Of a stretch of 64,000 nt of DNA, positions 48,743-56,260 are shown in pieces. Source of the DNA: Salinimicrobium sediminis (lineage in GTDB: Bacteria > Bacteroidota > Bacteroidia > Flavobacteriales > Flavobacteriaceae); NCBI RefSeq assembly GCF_900215295.1, contig NZ_OCMF01000002.1:372001-436000 (forward strand), in the 5' to 3' direction. The notes under the pieces were generated by a model. The model did not search any database, was not told the DNA's origin, and was given only the letters and a program-made list of their open reading frames with translations. The translations under genes were made by a program, and so were the position numbers. Each line of letters begins with the position of its first letter. Position 1 is the first letter of the stretch.

Positions 48743-49813
48743 TTATTTCTTTACCGCCTTTTCCAACAGCTTAATATACTTCTCTATTCCTTCTTCGATC
48801 TCCTTCACAAAGATGTATTCATCTGCGGAATGAGATCTTGTGGAGTCTCCCGGCCCCAGTTTTAAAGAGGGGCAACTCAGCATTGCCTGGTCAGACAGGG
48901 TTGGCGATCCATAAGTGTTCATTCCCAGAGACATTCCTGCTTTCACCAGCTCGTGATCCAACGGAATTGAAGATGAATTCAATCTGAGAGATCTGGCAGT
49001 AATACTGTCAACCGGAGCATTTTTCTGCAGGACCTCTTCGATCTCCTTATTGGAATACTGGTCATTTACTCTCACATCAATTACAAGCTCTACCTGTCCC
49101 GGCACTACATTGTGCTGACTCCCGGCATTGATCTGAGTGACCGTAAGCTTCACCTCTCCCAGCACATCAGATTTCTTTTCAAACCTAAAATCCTCGAACC
49201 ATTTCAAAACATTAGCTGTCCTATAGATGGCATTATCATCATTGGGATGTGCCGCATGTGAAGGCGTGCCCTTAACCACCGCGTCAAAAACGACCAGGCC
49301 TTTTTCGGCTATAGCCAGATCCATTAAAGTCGGTTCTCCCACAATTGCGACATCTACCTTCGGGATAACCGATAAAAGACAGGCGATTCCGTTCTTTCCA
49401 TTGATCTCCTCTTCGGCAGTACCTGCAAAAAGCAGATTGTATTCCAGATCTTCAGCTTCATAGAACCAGGTGAATGTAGCCAGAAGTGAAACCAGACAGC
49501 CACCGGCATCATTGCTTCCCAACCCATAGAGTTTCCCGTTCTCGACCCCGGCCTCAAAAGGATCTCTTGTATATCCTGAATTAGGTTTTACCGTATCATG
49601 ATGAGAGTTCAAAAGCAAGGTAGGTTTTAGAGGATCAAAGTTTTTATTGACCGCCCACACATTATTCAGGTAGCGTTCGAAAGGAATGTTCCTGCTCTTA
49701 AACCACTTTTTTAAATGACCTGCCGTTCCTTCTTCCTCTCCCGAAAAAGACCGGGTTTGGATAAGCTCTTTCAATAATTCTAACGCTTCCTGTTGTAGAT
49801 TTTCAAGTTTCAT
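48743..49813 (-). CDS. argE: M20-family deacylase of arginine synthesis
   Basis: The 356-residue metallopeptidase-fold protein has the M20 metal ligands LLNSHHDTVKP, the GLGSNDAGG Asp, and the catalytic Glu in GTAEEEINGKNG. Within the arginine operon it should remove the acyl group from N-acyl-citrulline (argF' pathway) or N-acyl-ornithine. Its ATG overlaps the argB stop by one base. Confidence 0.9.
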   Translation of the reverse strand: MKLENLQQEALELLKELIQTRSFSGEEEGTAGHLKKWFKSRNIPFERYLNNVWAVNKNFDPLKPTLLLNSHHDTVKPNSGYTRDPFEAGVENGKLYGLGSNDAGGCLVSLLATFTWFYEAEDLEYNLLFAGTAEEEINGKNGIACLLSVIPKVDVAIVGEPTLMDLAIAEKGLVVFDAVVKGTPSHAAHPNDDNAIYRTANVLKWFEDFRFEKKSDVLGEVKLTVTQINAGSQHNVVPGQVELVIDVRVNDQYSNKEIEEVLQKNAPVDSITARSLRLNSSSIPLDHELVKAGMSLGMNTYGSPTLSDQAMLSCPSLKLGPGDSTRSHSADEYIFVKEIEEGIEKYIKLLEKAVKK

Positions 49814-50589
49814 TACTTCACGATTTCAGTGGCGTTTGCATTTTCAGTTATTACCCGGGCATCGCCTAAAAAGATCTTCTTCACTCCATTTTCAAGGGCT
49901 CCAAAACAGTTAAGGAGCTTTGGTAACATACCGTCAGTTATAGCTTTCTGATCCAGCAGATCCTGATACATTTTTTTATCAAGAGTTTTTATCACCGAAT
50001 TTTCATCCATAGAATTTGCCAAAACCCCCTTTTTCTCAAAACAGTAATAAAGTTCTGTATTGTATTTCTCACTTAATGCCTTTGCTATTTCCGCGGCAAC
50101 AGAATCGCCATTCGTATTCAACAATTCCCCTTCCCTTGTACAGGAAATAGCTGAAAATACCGGTACCACCCCCTGCTCCAAAATGGAAGAAATAAAATCT
50201 GAATTCACAACTTCAATGTCTCCCACATATCCATAATCTATTTCCTTTACTTCTCTTTTTTTGGAAATAATACTCCTGCCATCAGCACCGCATAAGCCTA
50301 AAGAATTTACATCCAGAGCCTGCAATTTCGCCACTATGCGTTTGTTGATAAGGCCGGCGTAGGTCATAATGATCACTTTTAAGGAATTGGCATCTGTAAT
50401 TCTTCGGCCATCTATCATTTTGGTTTCATAACCAAGCTTTGAAGCTATTTCCGTAGCCATGTTTCCTCCTCCGTGAACCAGTATTTTCAGGCCTTCGAGC
50501 TCTGAGAAATCTGAAAGAAATGCCTGCAACTTGTTCTCATCTTCAATAAGCTTTCCTCCTACTTTTACAATTTTTAATGTCTTTTTCAT
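49813..50589 (-). CDS. argB: Acetylglutamate kinase
   Basis: The 258-residue kinase has KVGGKLIEDE, VHGGGNMATEIA and the NTNGDSVAAEIAKAL segment of the amino acid kinase fold. It phosphorylates N-acylglutamate. It overlaps argF' by 4 bp upstream and argE by 1 bp downstream. Confidence 0.95.
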   Translation of the reverse strand: MKKTLKIVKVGGKLIEDENKLQAFLSDFSELEGLKILVHGGGNMATEIASKLGYETKMIDGRRITDANSLKVIIMTYAGLINKRIVAKLQALDVNSLGLCGADGRSIISKKREVKEIDYGYVGDIEVVNSDFISSILEQGVVPVFSAISCTREGELLNTNGDSVAAEIAKALSEKYNTELYYCFEKKGVLANSMDENSVIKTLDKKMYQDLLDQKAITDGMLPKLLNCFGALENGVKKIFLGDARVITENANATEIVK

Positions 50590-51536
50590 TTCTTACTGTT
50601 TTCCAGAATTCTCTTCAATACAGCCTGAGCAGCGAAAGTCCTGTTTCCTGCCTGTTGAATGACCACGGAATTTTTTCCGTCTAAAACTTCATCAGCAATA
50701 ACTACATTCCTTCTAACCGGAAGGCAATGCATTATCTTTGCTGCGTTGGTAAGACCTAGTTTTTTATTATCAAATGTCCAGACCGGGTCTTCACTCAGTA
50801 TCTTTCCATACTGCTCATAACTGCTCCAGTTCTTGACATATACAAAATCTGCGTCTTTTAAAGCTTCGGCTTGTTCATGAACAACAGGAGTGTCTTTGGT
50901 GATCGCAGGATTAAGATCATAACCTTCAGGATTTGTGACTACCAGGTCCACATCCATTTTTTGCATTACCTCCACAAAAGAATTAGGCACTGCCTGCGGC
51001 AACGCGCGTGGATGCGGCGCCCATGTTAGAACTACCTTTGGCTTTTTCTCGCCTTTCAGTTCAGACACCGTCATCGCATCGGTAAGCGCCTGTAAAGGAT
51101 GACCTGTAGCGCTTTCCAGGTTGACTACAGGCACCGTAGCATATTTCTCAAATCCTGCCAATACCACATCAGCTTCATCTTTTTCACGATCTACCAGCCC
51201 GGGAAAAGCTCTCACAGCTATAATATCGCAATATTGTGAAAGCACTGCCGCAGCTTCTTTGATGTGCTCTGCCTTATTGGAATTCATTACGGCCCCATCT
51301 TCAAATTCAAGAGCCCATCCGTCCTTATCAGCATTCATGACCATCACCTCCATTCCAAGCAATTTTGCCGCTTTTTCGGTGCTTAAACGGGTACGAAGGC
51401 TCGGGTTAAAAAATAACATTCCCAAGGTCTTCCCTTTTCCAACTTCTGCCGCAGAATTCTGTTTCTTAAGTTCTCTGGCCTCAAAGATCAATTCCTCTAA
51501 ATTCTCGATATCTTCTAAACTTGTGTAGTTCTTCAT
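50586..51536 (-). CDS. argF': N-acylornithine carbamoyltransferase (argF' type)
   Basis: The 316-residue transcarbamylase has the carbamoyl-phosphate site FFNPSLRTRLS (normally S-T-R-T-R), HPLQALTDAMT and HCLPVRRNVVIADEVLDG. The SLRTR form, the DGWALEFEDG loop and the KNWSSYEQYGK segment mark the N-acetyl/N-succinyl-ornithine branch rather than ordinary OTCase. The specificity position is Ala89 here (acetyl enzymes have Glu, succinyl enzymes Pro), so acyl preference is unclear. The downstream argE must then deacylate citrulline. It overlaps argB by 4 bp. Confidence 0.93.
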   Translation of the reverse strand: MKNYTSLEDIENLEELIFEARELKKQNSAAEVGKGKTLGMLFFNPSLRTRLSTEKAAKLLGMEVMVMNADKDGWALEFEDGAVMNSNKAEHIKEAAAVLSQYCDIIAVRAFPGLVDREKDEADVVLAGFEKYATVPVVNLESATGHPLQALTDAMTVSELKGEKKPKVVLTWAPHPRALPQAVPNSFVEVMQKMDVDLVVTNPEGYDLNPAITKDTPVVHEQAEALKDADFVYVKNWSSYEQYGKILSEDPVWTFDNKKLGLTNAAKIMHCLPVRRNVVIADEVLDGKNSVVIQQAGNRTFAAQAVLKRILENSKK

Positions 51537-51548
51537 TTTCTAATGCTA

Positions 51549-52682
51549 TTAGTCGTTCAGGGCTTTTTTCAATGCCTCAAAGAACTCATCAAAATGTTCT
51601 TCTTGAATATTTAATGGTGGCAGGATCCTCAATAATTTTTTATTGGAGGCAGCACCCGTAAAAACCCGGTGTTCAAAAAGAAGTTCCTTTCTAAGGGATG
51701 CGATCTCAAAATCAAACTCCAGGCCTATCATTAGTCCCCTGCCTTTCAATTTCTTGATCTGCGGAATTTCTGCAGCCCTTTCTTTTACGTACTGAAACAA
51801 CTTTTCCGCATTTTCGAGCAGGTTCTCTTCCTTTAAAATATCCAGCACTGCAATTCCGGCAGCACAGGCAAGGTGATTTCCACCAAAAGTGGTTCCCAGC
51901 AATCCATGTTTAGGCTGAATCCTAGGATTCATCAGGATCCCTCCAACAGGAAACCCATTGCCCATTCCTTTTGCTACGGAAATTATATCCGGTTTAATTC
52001 CGTGTTTCTGAAAGGCGAAAAAATCTCCTGTCCTTCCATATCCACACTGAACTTCATCGGCTATCAACAAAGCTTCATGTTTCCTACACAGATCTGAAAC
52101 TGTCCGGATAAATTCCGAAGAAGCTTCTTCCAGCCCTCCTACTCCCTGGATGACCTCAAAAATAACAGCTGCGACATCCTCTTTTTGAAGTTCTTTTTCA
52201 AGCGCTTCAACATCTTCAAAAGCGAGTTTTGTCACCGAATGCTGTTGATTGAACGGTGCCTTAATCGATTCATTATCGGTTACTGCGACTACCCCTGAAG
52301 TTCTTCCGTGAAAAGCATTTTCGAAATAGATCACCCTGCTTTTACCGGTATGGAAAGACGCTAGTTTCAAAGCATTCTCATTGGCCTCGGCACCTGAATT
52401 GCACAGAAACAGTTTATATTCTGAGCATCCCGATAAGTCACCAAGCTTTTTGGCCAGTTCTTCCTGCAAGGGATTCTTTACTGAATTGGAATAAAATCCC
52501 AATTTCTCAACCTGCTCAGAAAGCGCCTTTACATATTTTGGATGCGCATGACCTACAGAGATCACTGCATGGCCCCCATAAAGATCAAGGTATTTTGTGT
52601 CGTTTTCATCATACACATAGGCTCCCTTCCCTTTTACAGGGGTAATATCATAAAGCGGATATACATCAAATAATTCCATCAT
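51549..52682 (-). CDS. argD: N-acylornithine aminotransferase
   Basis: The 377-residue class III PLP aminotransferase shows SAEN-type motif NSGAEANENALKLA, LIADEVQCGYGRTG, the PLP lysine in ISVAKGMGNGFPVGG and GTTFGGNHLACAAG. It produces N-acylornithine. Located between argC (6 bp) and argF' (12 bp). Two ATGs open the frame. Confidence 0.95.
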   Translation of the reverse strand: MMELFDVYPLYDITPVKGKGAYVYDENDTKYLDLYGGHAVISVGHAHPKYVKALSEQVEKLGFYSNSVKNPLQEELAKKLGDLSGCSEYKLFLCNSGAEANENALKLASFHTGKSRVIYFENAFHGRTSGVVAVTDNESIKAPFNQQHSVTKLAFEDVEALEKELQKEDVAAVIFEVIQGVGGLEEASSEFIRTVSDLCRKHEALLIADEVQCGYGRTGDFFAFQKHGIKPDIISVAKGMGNGFPVGGILMNPRIQPKHGLLGTTFGGNHLACAAGIAVLDILKEENLLENAEKLFQYVKERAAEIPQIKKLKGRGLMIGLEFDFEIASLRKELLFEHRVFTGAASNKKLLRILPPLNIQEEHFDEFFEALKKALND

Positions 52683-52688
52683 TTTCTT

Positions 52689-53654
52689 TTAAAAATAACT
52701 GGCTTTCAACTGCAGGCCCTGGTTTTCAGGAAAGCCAAACATCAGGTTCATATTCTGAACCGCCTGGCCAGAAGCTCCTTTTAAGAGGTTATCCAGCACA
52801 CTTGTGATAAGCAGCTTGTTTCCGAATTTTTGCAATCTTATAAGACATTTATTGGTGTTTACCACCTGTTTTAAATGCACTTCTCCCTCTGTTACAAAAG
52901 TAAAGGCAGCATCTTCGTAAGCTTTTTGGTAGATTTCTTTGGCTTCTTCCTGGCTCCCTTCAAAATGAGTATAAGCGGTACAATGAATTCCTCTGGAAAA
53001 ATTCCCCCTGTTGGGAATAAAATTTAAAGTAGATCTAAAATCAGACTGTAATTTCTTTACGCTATGATTGATCTCTTCCAAATGCTGATGTTCAAACGCC
53101 TTGTAGGAAGAATAATTATTGTCTCTCCAGGTAAAATGTGTGGTTTCAGATAGGGAAGTTCCAGCGCCGGTTGCTCCCGTTACCGCGTTTATATGCACAT
53201 CTTCCTTTAACAGGTCATTAGCTGCCAATGGCAGAATGGCCAGGCTGATCGCTGTGGCAAAACAACCGGGATTGGCTATAAATTTCGCATCGCTGATCTT
53301 TTCCCTGTTGAATTCCGGTAAGCCGTAAACGAAGGAATGGCTGTCAGCAGCTATCCTGTAATCGGTACTCAGGTCGACGATCTTTGTTTTATCTGAAAAA
53401 CTATTGTCATTCAGGAATTTAACAGAATTTCCATGGCCCAGGCACAAAAAGACGACATCTGCTTCCGGATTTATTTCCCCGCTAAAAATGAGACCTGTTT
53501 CCCCTGTTAGATCCTGGTGGATCGAACTCACCGGTTTTTCCGCCTGGGATGTGCTGTATATGAAATTCAGGTTCACTTCAGGGTGTCTGAGAAGAATTCT
53601 TATAAGTTCCCCTGCCGTATAGCCGGCACCTCCTATTATTCCTGCTTCTATCAT
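52689..53654 (-). CDS. argC: N-acetyl-gamma-glutamyl-phosphate reductase
   Basis: The 321-residue reductase has the nucleotide-binding start GIIGGAGYTAGELIRILLRHP and the active-site cysteine in NPGCFATAISLAILPL. It reduces N-acylglutamyl phosphate. Overlaps argG by 4 bp. Confidence 0.95.
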   Translation of the reverse strand: MIEAGIIGGAGYTAGELIRILLRHPEVNLNFIYSTSQAEKPVSSIHQDLTGETGLIFSGEINPEADVVFLCLGHGNSVKFLNDNSFSDKTKIVDLSTDYRIAADSHSFVYGLPEFNREKISDAKFIANPGCFATAISLAILPLAANDLLKEDVHINAVTGATGAGTSLSETTHFTWRDNNYSSYKAFEHQHLEEINHSVKKLQSDFRSTLNFIPNRGNFSRGIHCTAYTHFEGSQEEAKEIYQKAYEDAAFTFVTEGEVHLKQVVNTNKCLIRLQKFGNKLLITSVLDNLLKGASGQAVQNMNLMFGFPENQGLQLKASYF

Positions 53655-54838
53655 GATTCCTGTTTTACGTGTTGATAGATCTTTCCGGAATTTGAAAGTA
53701 TCTTAATGAAGCCTTTGGCATCATTCGCTGTCCAGGCATTGTTCTCTTCCCCGTACTTTCCGAAGCCGCTATTCATTAGATCAAACTTTGATTCTATACC
53801 ATCCAGCACGAACCTGTAAGGATGTAAGGTCAAAAATACCGTTCCGCTTACCTGTTCCTGGGAACTTTGTAGAAAGGCTTCAAAATCCCTCATTACAGGA
53901 TCCAAATATAAACCTTCATGTAGGTGCATTCCATACCAGTTAGCGATGTAATCTTTATGCTGAAGCTGCCATTTGCTCAGGGTGTGTTTTTCCAGCAAAT
54001 GGTGCGCTTTTATGGTAATAAGAGCGGCTGCAGCTTCAAAACCTACTCTACCCTTGATCCCAATAATGGTATCGCCCACGTGTATGTCTCTGCCAATGGC
54101 AAACTTAGACGCGATGTTTTCCAGGATCTCAATATTTTTCTCAGGGGAATTTACCGTGCCGTTTACTTCAGTAAGCTCTCCTTTATAAAAACTAAGACTA
54201 ATTTGTTTAGGCTCCTGTTCCTGAAGCTGTGACGGATATGCACTTTCGGGCAAGGGTTTTTCTGAAGTAAGGGTCTCAGCTCCTCCCACACTGGTTCCCC
54301 ACAGACCTTTATTGACCGAATATTTGGCCTTCTCCCAGTTCATGTCAACGCCATTGGCCGTAAGGTATTCTATCTCCTCCTGTCTGCTGAGTTTTTTGTC
54401 TCGAATGGGAGTGATGATCTCGATTTCGGGCGCAAGGGTTTGAAATATCATATCAAATCTCACCTGGTCGTTTCCGGCACCGGTGCTACCGTGCGCGATG
54501 TATTTGGCACCAATTTTCTTGGCGTGGTTCACGATCTCGATCGCCTGAATGATCCTTTCGGCACTCACCGATAATGGATAGGTGTCATTTTTCAATACGT
54601 TCCCGAAAATGAGATATTTCACCACCCTTTGGTAAAAGGAAGAAACCGCATCGATATTGGTATAAGAGGTCGCTCCTATTTTTTGAGCATTGCTCCCTAT
54701 TTTTTCGATTTCTTCTGAAGAAAATCCGCCGGTGTTAACGCTCACGGCGTGCACCTCAAAATTTTCTTCTTTTGACAAATATTTGGCGCAGTAGGAAGTA
54801 TCCAATCCGCCGCTATATGCTATTACTACTTTTTCCAT
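53651..54838 (-). CDS. argG: Argininosuccinate synthase
   Basis: The 395-residue enzyme has the ATP-pyrophosphatase P-loop AYSGGLDTSYCAKYL, HGSTGAGNDQVRFD and the substrate-binding segments of ASS. It condenses citrulline and aspartate. Second gene of the operon, 29 bp after the GNAT gene. Confidence 0.97.
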   Translation of the reverse strand: MEKVVIAYSGGLDTSYCAKYLSKEENFEVHAVSVNTGGFSSEEIEKIGSNAQKIGATSYTNIDAVSSFYQRVVKYLIFGNVLKNDTYPLSVSAERIIQAIEIVNHAKKIGAKYIAHGSTGAGNDQVRFDMIFQTLAPEIEIITPIRDKKLSRQEEIEYLTANGVDMNWEKAKYSVNKGLWGTSVGGAETLTSEKPLPESAYPSQLQEQEPKQISLSFYKGELTEVNGTVNSPEKNIEILENIASKFAIGRDIHVGDTIIGIKGRVGFEAAAALITIKAHHLLEKHTLSKWQLQHKDYIANWYGMHLHEGLYLDPVMRDFEAFLQSSQEQVSGTVFLTLHPYRFVLDGIESKFDLMNSGFGKYGEENNAWTANDAKGFIKILSNSGKIYQHVKQES

Positions 54839-54867: not shown

Positions 54868-55500
54868 TTAGCTTACCGCTTTTTCCTTCTCTTTCTTGTA
54901 AAAAAGTGTTTGTTTGATATTCTTTAATCTCTTAAAAGCCTTTTCATTCAGCTTTTCTCTCTTTTCGATAGGTTTCTTTTTTGCAGGATCATACAGCATG
55001 CCGGTACACAGGCACATCTTGCGCTCGGTACGGGTGAGAATGTCAAAGTTCTTACAGGTTTGACAACCGCTCCAAAAAGTCTCATCATCGGTAAGTTCTG
55101 AGAAAGTTACCGGTTGATATCCCAGCTCGTAATTGATCTTCATGACCGCAAGCCCGGTAGTTATCCCGAAGATCTTAGAGTTGGGATACTTTTTCCTTGA
55201 CAGCTCAAAAACGGCTTTTTTGATATCTTTTGCCAGTCCCTGGTTTCTATAATCAGGATGTACGATGAGCCCGGAATTGGCTACGAATTTCTCATGACTC
55301 CAGATCTCGATGTAACAGAACCCCGCGAACTTGTCCCCGTCTAAAGCAATGATCGCATTACCATTAGACATCTTTTTCAGAACGTATTCGGGGCTTCTTC
55401 GGGCAATACCCGTCCCTCGAACCTTGGCCGATTCTTCCATCGTGTTACAAATGATCTCCGCATACTTTGCATGAGACTCGTTAGCAATGACAATTTTCAT
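54868..55500 (-). CDS. GNAT N-acetyltransferase, probable N-acylglutamate synthase of the arg operon
   Basis: The 210-residue GNAT protein has the acetyl-CoA region VHPDYRNQGLAKDIKKAVFE, with the Q/RxxGxG/A variant QGLAK. A cysteine-bearing C-terminal extension (SGCQTCKNFDIL, ERKMCLCTGM) is unusual and may bind metal. It is the first gene of the eight-gene operon and no other first-step enzyme is present, so it probably acylates glutamate. That function is inferred from position. An arginine-rich leader frame precedes it. Confidence 0.82.
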   Translation of the reverse strand: MKIVIANESHAKYAEIICNTMEESAKVRGTGIARRSPEYVLKKMSNGNAIIALDGDKFAGFCYIEIWSHEKFVANSGLIVHPDYRNQGLAKDIKKAVFELSRKKYPNSKIFGITTGLAVMKINYELGYQPVTFSELTDDETFWSGCQTCKNFDILTRTERKMCLCTGMLYDPAKKKPIEKREKLNEKAFKRLKNIKQTLFYKKEKEKAVS

Positions 55501-55545: not shown

Positions 55546-55563
55546 GGAACTCAAAAAAGTTCC
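55546..55563 (-). promoter_or_regulatory. Hairpin between the Arg leader and the arg operon
   Basis: On the - strand GGAACT-N6-AGTTCC, 6 bp, followed by CCC and a short TTT. Terminator-like, but the U-tract is weak. An upstream hairpin CGCAC-GTTT-GTGCG covers the Arg codons of the leader. Confidence 0.45.
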
Positions 55564-55569
55564 GGAAAA

Positions 55570-55674
55570 TCAAGCGCGCACAAACGTGCGGCGGAGACCA
55601 ATACGACGCCTAAAAGAATATTCAGGAGAGATCCTGAAAACAAAAACTAAAACTATGTGGAAAAAATGACTCAA
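55570..55674 (-). CDS. Candidate Arg-rich leader peptide of the arginine operon
   Basis: A 34-codon frame starts with TTG at 55674 and ends with TGA (55570-55572), 70 bp before the GNAT gene. It contains seven Arg codons, five of them in the last 13 codons as AGG-CGT-CGT ... CGC-CGC ... CGC (peptide end RRRIGLRRTFVRA). The frame begins after a -7-like element, and is followed by hairpins. Such an arrangement suggests ribosome-stalling attenuation. Start codon is not ATG, so the exact N terminus is uncertain. Confidence 0.5.
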   Translation of the reverse strand: MSHFFHIVLVFVFRISPEYSFRRRIGLRRTFVRA

Positions 55675-55713
55675 TATGGTAAACTCAAATAATTAAACAC
55701 TGCGACGGAAAGA

Positions 55714-55721
55714 CAAATATC
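55714..55721 (-). promoter_or_regulatory. Possible -7 element of the arg operon
   Basis: GATATTTG on the - strand, one mismatch to TAnnTTTG, 40 bases before the leader TTG. Confidence 0.35.
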
Positions 55722-56260
55722 CTTACCTGCGACGATTGTATAACCGGCGCCTTAAAAGCGTTCTTATTATTTGAAGTATTGAATTCACGGGGTAAAAATA
55801 TATTTTATTTTAATACCAAGACAAAAACTTGTTTTAAAATTAGAAGCAGCACCTGTTAAAATATAATTATTTAAGGTTCTGATGGTTATTGACCATATTT
55901 CTAGGCATTAATATATTAGACTCGTTAGGTATTAATGATTTTCCGGGTTTTTTGTTCTCAATGCTTCTAAAAAAATGAAAAAGCCAGAACCATTGTCCCC
56001 AGATCCTTAAATGCCTGCTATAGGCTGAGAGAATAAATATTATTCCAAATTGGATTACACCACATAATCAACTGAAAATCATTATTGTACCATAATTTTA
56101 TTCTTGTTTTTCATATCTTTATATAGAAGAAGAAAAAACATCTGACTTTCTTTTTCTCTTTTTAAGACGTATTAAATCTCCAAATCTTGATAAAAATTTA
56201 ATGAATATTGCCTTTATCAGTGCCTTTTAGTTTCCCCTCAACGATGTAAATTTTATAGCC
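55722..56260. other. AT-rich divergent spacer upstream of the arg operon
   Basis: About 540 bases without a supported gene. A-T rich with no repeats or RNA gene recognised; the Cache protein gene starts at its right end. Confidence 0.5.

Follow-up and report, generated by a model that had tools for sequence, protein, structure and literature searches.

What controls arginine synthesis in Salinimicrobium sediminis? The window, which is the whole stretch of 64,000 nucleotides analysed here, contains an arginine operon on the minus strand. Its first gene (54868-55500) encodes a GNAT acetyltransferase-like protein that scores 26.8 bits, below the model cut-off, and shares 99% identity with its Salinimicrobium catena counterpart. 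There follow an argG-like gene (53651-54838; 255 bits with TIGR00032, for a cut-off of 268), argC (52689-53654, over the cut-off), an argD-like transaminase gene (51549-52682; best model TIGR00707, below cut-off), and two further genes over their cut-offs, those for N-acetylornithine carbamoyltransferase (50586-51536) and argB (49813-50589). The frames after argB are presumably argE and argH.

No ArgR (PF02863) was found in 60 relatives, the window's genome included, with a control search that was positive in 8 of 14 control genomes, a Bacteroides among them; the operon is accordingly not assigned to ArgR and ARG boxes. A first-pass annotation of this DNA had proposed a candidate attenuator, perhaps acting on translation, with a single arginine-codon leader behind a -7-like element and hairpins after it, the terminator U-tract being weak. 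Conservation in relatives bears out the arginine-codon leader before the operon. The place of the promoter, the single leader and the canonical terminator are not sustained: the leaders are two in tandem, and the hairpin after the stop codon is of another kind.

Two arginine-rich frames in tandem

The annotated frame, a minus-strand frame of 34 codons with a TTG start and seven arginine codons, is present at 55570-55674, and we call it leader B. Its C-terminal 13 residues are RRRIGLRRTFVRA, and six of them are arginine, where five had been counted. The start codon had been left in some doubt; all 18 tandem-leader sequences that were aligned have the TTG at this place. Upstream on the same strand lies a second frame, leader A (MNSILQIIRTLLRRRLYNRRR, 55723-55788), with a GTG start and seven arginine codons among its 21, which the first-pass annotation had overlooked; it was included in a shuffle control and aligned with 17 relatives.

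For that control a minus-strand stretch of 301 nt was shuffled 5000 times with its dinucleotides preserved, and each shuffle was scored for frames that open with a start codon, run to at least 20 codons and have five or more arginine codons among the last 13. One or more such frames arose in 11 of the 5000 shuffles and two in none, whereas the window has two. Features of this strain such as the TTG start, together with the degenerate form of its second hairpin (below), might suggest that frame and hairpins are chance features devoid of function, but given these counts and the conservation across the family that is hardly credible. The arginine-rich frame and both annotated hairpins are real and above chance.

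The sequence TTTG-N19-TATATTTT (55795-55825, minus strand), read from the sequence, resembles a promoter consensus. A like arrangement stands directly before leader A in tandem-leader relatives and before the single leader in the other relatives inspected. Leader A starts six bases past it and therefore looks promoter-proximal, so that the frame first annotated becomes the second of the pair. The promoter is thus probably at 55825-55795 and not at the -7-like element near 55720, which is not kept in either relative aligned there (S. catena and L004).

For the spacer of the tandem leaders RNAalifold predicts no common structure in the 18 aligned sequences. There is moderate evidence for a possible long-range helix, P0, that would link leader A with the stretch before leader B on the minus strand, its 5' arm (UCAAAUAAU) at 55766-55774 and its 3' arm (AUUAUUUGA) at 55685-55693. 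In the alignment 87.4% of P0 cells are paired, a value reached by none of 500 shuffles. The value for pairs changed on both sides is reached by 107 of 500, and two of the five measures are no higher than in shuffles. Taken singly, nine of the 18 sequences reach the level attained by at most five of 100 shuffles; the window is equalled by 15 of 100.

Arginine codons in the leaders of relatives

We compared the leaders upstream of the GNAT gene in relatives. The 80 named relatives were chosen for the similarity of their GNAT proteins and are not independent, since some genera contribute more than one. Overall 211 of 213 loci passed the filter, and these contain 193 distinct leaders. At least three arginine codons are found in the last 15 codons of the best frame in 189 of the 193, a figure that is favoured because the frame was chosen by its arginine count. 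In 148 of the 193 the arginine codons are followed by a proline codon and the stop, located at the first hairpin. Within these 148, with the final two codons left aside, the preceding 13 contain 458 arginine codons in frame, compared with 95 and 49 in the other two frames, of 1924 codons each. All of them have arginine at position -2, 95% have it at -3 and 66% at -4.

A short frame rich in codons for the operon's own amino acid thus lies upstream of the operon, as in attenuators generally, and it is conserved as coding sequence in relatives, judged by the frame bias and the unchanging TTG. The check proposed in the first-pass annotation, comparison with relatives, comes out in its favour: throughout the family the frame, its arginine codons and the hairpins have persisted while the sequence drifted. 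These counts are strong support for an arginine leader peptide ahead of the arg operon.

Could the peptide itself be the sensor? Fungal AAP, TnaC and SpeFL are arrest peptides that sense their ligands, and TnaC has a proline before its stop codon, as do 148 of the 193 leaders. A nascent chain that detects free arginine in this way is nevertheless improbable. Beyond the codon run we find no conserved residues other than the last proline, and all the rest vary. The proline codon moreover belongs to the arm of the first hairpin, and the leaders of Salinimicrobium, Salegentibacter and Gillisia have other endings.

Hairpins H0, H1 and H2

Three hairpins can be drawn on the minus strand. H0 (UUCAGGA-UCUC-UCCUGAA, 55621-55638) lies inside leader B and comes from single-sequence folds, with hairpins at a similar place in relatives by eye. 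H1 (CGCAC-GUUU-GUGCG, 55577-55590) has a 5' arm that is read as arginine codons in relatives. H2 (55546-55563) follows the stop codon. The latter two are where they had been annotated, as CGCAC-N4-GTGCG (55590-55577) and GGAACT-N6-AGTTCC (55563-55546).

A covariance model of H1 and H2, named R1, was built from 27 sequences and matched all 100 of the sources tested, the window included, which also form the covariation alignment. The window matches at 55603-55543 with 21.0 bits (E 0.0017), and only one of the 100 scores lower. In the alignment 96.5% of cells pair, and the covariation score is 0.395 compared with 0.182 for shuffled alignments and was reached by none of 500. These figures are flattered, since the sequences share ancestry and were aligned to the model itself. 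Changes on both sides occur somewhere in all six pairs of H2 and in one of the five pairs of H1, whose outermost pair is broken in 23 of the 100. Single-sequence folds give no consistent mutually exclusive antiterminator pairing; the overlap of H1 with the arginine codons could be a simpler switch.

In its conserved form H2 combines a covarying stem and a bulged A with the loop GGUG(A/U)GUCC. Upstream of the GNAT gene GGTGAGTCC is found in 79 of the 80 named relatives and GGTGTGTCC in L109, and this corresponds to the H2 loop. Over 211 loci the loops comprise 176 GGTGAGTCC, 25 GGTGTGTCC, four GGTGCGTCC, two GATGTGTTC and four single variants. In L201, L268 and L273 A-U replaces G-C, in support of an inner helix of 2 bp above the bulged A; in L261, with GATGAGTTG, the outer pair of this helix is broken. 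Relative to S. catena, the window has lost the conserved loop (AGG is replaced by TTT, with a gap of four bases) and retains the complete stem GGAACU/AGUUCC. By this comparison the hairpin previously taken for a terminator with a weak U-tract is a degenerate remnant of the conserved RNA element H2, which has no U-tract.

The element appears to be outside Rfam. No match at the gathering score was obtained in the window or in nine loci, and a search with four loci gave only sub-threshold matches elsewhere. The H2 loop AGGUGA-UCC resembles what we take to be the complement of the 16S 3' end, and pairing between the two was considered; natural variants such as GGUGUGUCC and GAUGUGUUC, among others, weaken this. 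We also considered H2 as a general element and rejected this. Its exact pattern has 46 matches in 26 of 60 genomes, and of 30 such loci 11 are arg leaders with the stem and 19 lie elsewhere with no matching stem by eye. Outside arg, the best match of an H2-only model (E 0.021) is inside a trkA-like gene. The Salinimicrobium form is poorly detected by that model (E 0.008 to 0.45).

Distribution of the element

With strict filters, one match per genome and E ≤0.01, R1 is found in 175 of 299 Flavobacteriaceae genomes and 145 of 236 genera. The remaining 124 genomes have no match under these filters, the window's own among them. In the order (246 genomes) there are 13 matches, all in Flavobacteriaceae. 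In the phylum (296 genomes) 37 matches at E ≤0.1 comprise 12 in Flavobacteriaceae and 25 in other families; the latter have E values from 0.0013 to 0.09, and all of the 37 that are better than 0.001 are in Flavobacteriaceae. Spread beyond the family was rejected, the best match elsewhere (L180, E 0.0013) overlapping long open frames.

The GNAT gene is directly downstream of the element in 38 of 39 strong loci inspected. In the other, L165 of genome G185, a different acetyltransferase gene comes first and then argG, with leader and H2 kept. The element therefore goes with the arg operon.

In the genus g146, which we suspect to be Flavobacterium, 10 of 11 genomes searched carry the GNAT gene, and none of the 10 loci inspected has H2 upstream of it. 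A different conserved leader is seen in L202-L208 (and L282-L285), consisting of a promoter-like sequence and then a frame such as MNKISLHITSLSRTNSPITSPEVRTLSL. It has three small hairpins and no arginine run, and is present in seven of the 10 loci (seven aligned), with L209, L210 and L213 lacking it. L282-L285 have no Rfam match for it. The frame is possibly an arrest peptide.

Other hairpins occupy the place of H2 at two further sites. In G066 (L212 and L286) the arginine leader FRFDFRRRLLA-stop is followed by the hairpin GUGAUGU-UCCG-UACAUCAC, which has no H2 loop. In L027 (G037, from another family of the order) a leader read by eye as RRRPVRV-stop precedes AUGGU-UACGU-ACCAU and a U-rich tail. 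H2 may have replaced a terminator like that of L027, a suggestion drawn from one sequence and thin evidence.

H2 and the terminator of the his operon

The his operon of the same genomes provides a comparison. A His-codon leader is visible in all 14 loci inspected from a set of 20, and the terminator pattern was found in 18 of the 20. In all 18 at least six of the next nine bases are T, whereas this is true after H2 in 7 of 193 loci. H2 is therefore rejected as an intrinsic terminator, the U-tract that such a terminator before the first arg gene would carry being lacking in all but those seven loci. The window's own genome is among the 18, its his locus L324 (G000:C7 near 55300) having, like the 17 others, a His-codon leader and the canonical terminator CCCGUUUGAG..CAAACGGG with its U-tract.

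In position the two are alike. From the end of the H2 loop to the first ATG of a long frame the median is 56 nt (203 of 211 loci), with eight of these at 90 to 216 nt, some of them perhaps through a misplaced start; from the end of the his terminator to hisG the mean is 49 nt. H2 thus stands at a place similar to that of the his terminator. The 30 nt after H2 contain 18% C and 5.5% G, and the his equivalent 18.7% C and 13.9% G. This composition fits Rho or a plain unstructured 5' UTR, and was left unused as evidence for Rho.

Alternatively, H2 might bind a regulator of its own, either a protein or a small molecule, that affects how well the mRNA is translated or how stable it is, so that leader and H2 would be two separate inputs. 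Known protein-binding hairpins combine an invariant loop with a freely covarying stem, as H2 does. The lack of a U-tract would fit, as would the distance from loop to start codon, which is 50-61 nt in all 80 named relatives. Against this, L165 has a different gene next in line, with 216 nt up to its start codon, and a comparable spacing is seen for the his terminator, an element that works at the level of transcription. We regard such a regulator as unlikely, though a serious contender.

Of 20 genomes, ilvD (TIGR00110) is matched in 18; the exceptions are the window's genome (G000) and G002, which have perhaps lost the branched-chain pathway.

A model for the control of arginine synthesis

The comparisons support the reading frame, the arginine codons, the structures of H1 and H2, their link with the arg operon and their position. 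That the operon responds to arginine, that ribosomes stall, at which level control is exerted and what H2 does are inferred from these. This is probably an arginine-sensing switch that ends in a hairpin instead of the usual stop signal. Transcription would start just upstream of an almost leaderless arginine-rich leader, or in this genus of the tandem A and B, with a ribosome trailing the RNA polymerase. If charged Arg-tRNA is scarce, the ribosome would stall in the arginine run, which is the 5' arm of H1; H1 would not form, and the polymerase would enter the arg operon. If arginine is plentiful, the ribosome would finish the leader, H1 and then H2 would form, and expression would be shut off. 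H2 stands at the place of other operons' terminators and lacks a U-tract, so it would most likely pause or end transcription with the aid of a factor that reads its loop. H2 is the weakest link in this scheme. Since it could form regardless of the ribosome, the switch is more likely to be H1, with H2 as its output.

We favour this ribosome-mediated attenuator, with two tandem leaders in this genus and H2 as a factor-dependent output, with reasonable but not high confidence. Counted against it are the possible formation of H2 independently of the ribosome, the absence of an antiterminator from the folds, of a U-tract and of the window's H2 loop, the 124 family genomes unmatched under strict filters, the 10 g146 loci lacking H2, the tandem spacer without structure in RNAalifold, and H1 with its one covarying pair and often broken outer pair. 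A bolder proposal, to which we give somewhat less than even credence, is that H2 is a new small RNA effector, a sequence-specific hairpin with covarying stem, bulged A and loop GGUGNGUCC and no U-tract. A Bacteroidota factor would recognise it and either make transcription pause or stop or else block the mRNA; the result would be an attenuator dedicated to arginine that needs no intrinsic terminator. The leader-peptide switch, with its 175 genomes, is a concrete candidate for the control of arginine synthesis where ArgR was not found in 60 relatives.

Relation to known attenuators

Ribosome-mediated amino acid attenuators, the his leader of the same genomes included, share with this locus a leader rich in codons for the product, hairpins after it, and a position directly before the biosynthetic operon. 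The differences here are arginine, the invariant H2 loop, the lack of a U-tract, the lack of an antiterminator in our folds, and tandem leaders in some genera. The kind of attenuator is thus already known; what is new is that it concerns arginine, that leaders occur in tandem and that H2 is present. Within the titles and abstract openings searched, no arginine leader-peptide attenuator in Bacteroidota was found.

In the same family, Flavobacterium psychrophilum has clues to leader-peptide attenuation before amino acid operons (PMC9723704); the accessible part of that report names neither an arginine leader nor an H2 hairpin. Cys leader peptides in Mycobacterium likewise have a codon run and no obvious terminator, and the authors suggested Rho (PMC1262725). 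They differ in amino acid and phylum and, in the portion available, in having no conserved hairpin. The carA gene of Pseudomonas aeruginosa, which serves both arginine and pyrimidine synthesis, also has a leader peptide (PMC4997734). There attenuation is tied to pyrimidines, gene and phylum are different, and no H2-like hairpin is described in the available text. Nor is an H2-like element described in the parts of PMC8632094 and PMC7366714 that were covered. H2 is compact and strongly conserved, and identifying what binds it might bring to light a factor for termination or translation in a phylum that has received little study. For such comparison the window strain, with stem kept and loop lost, is a natural H2 variant.
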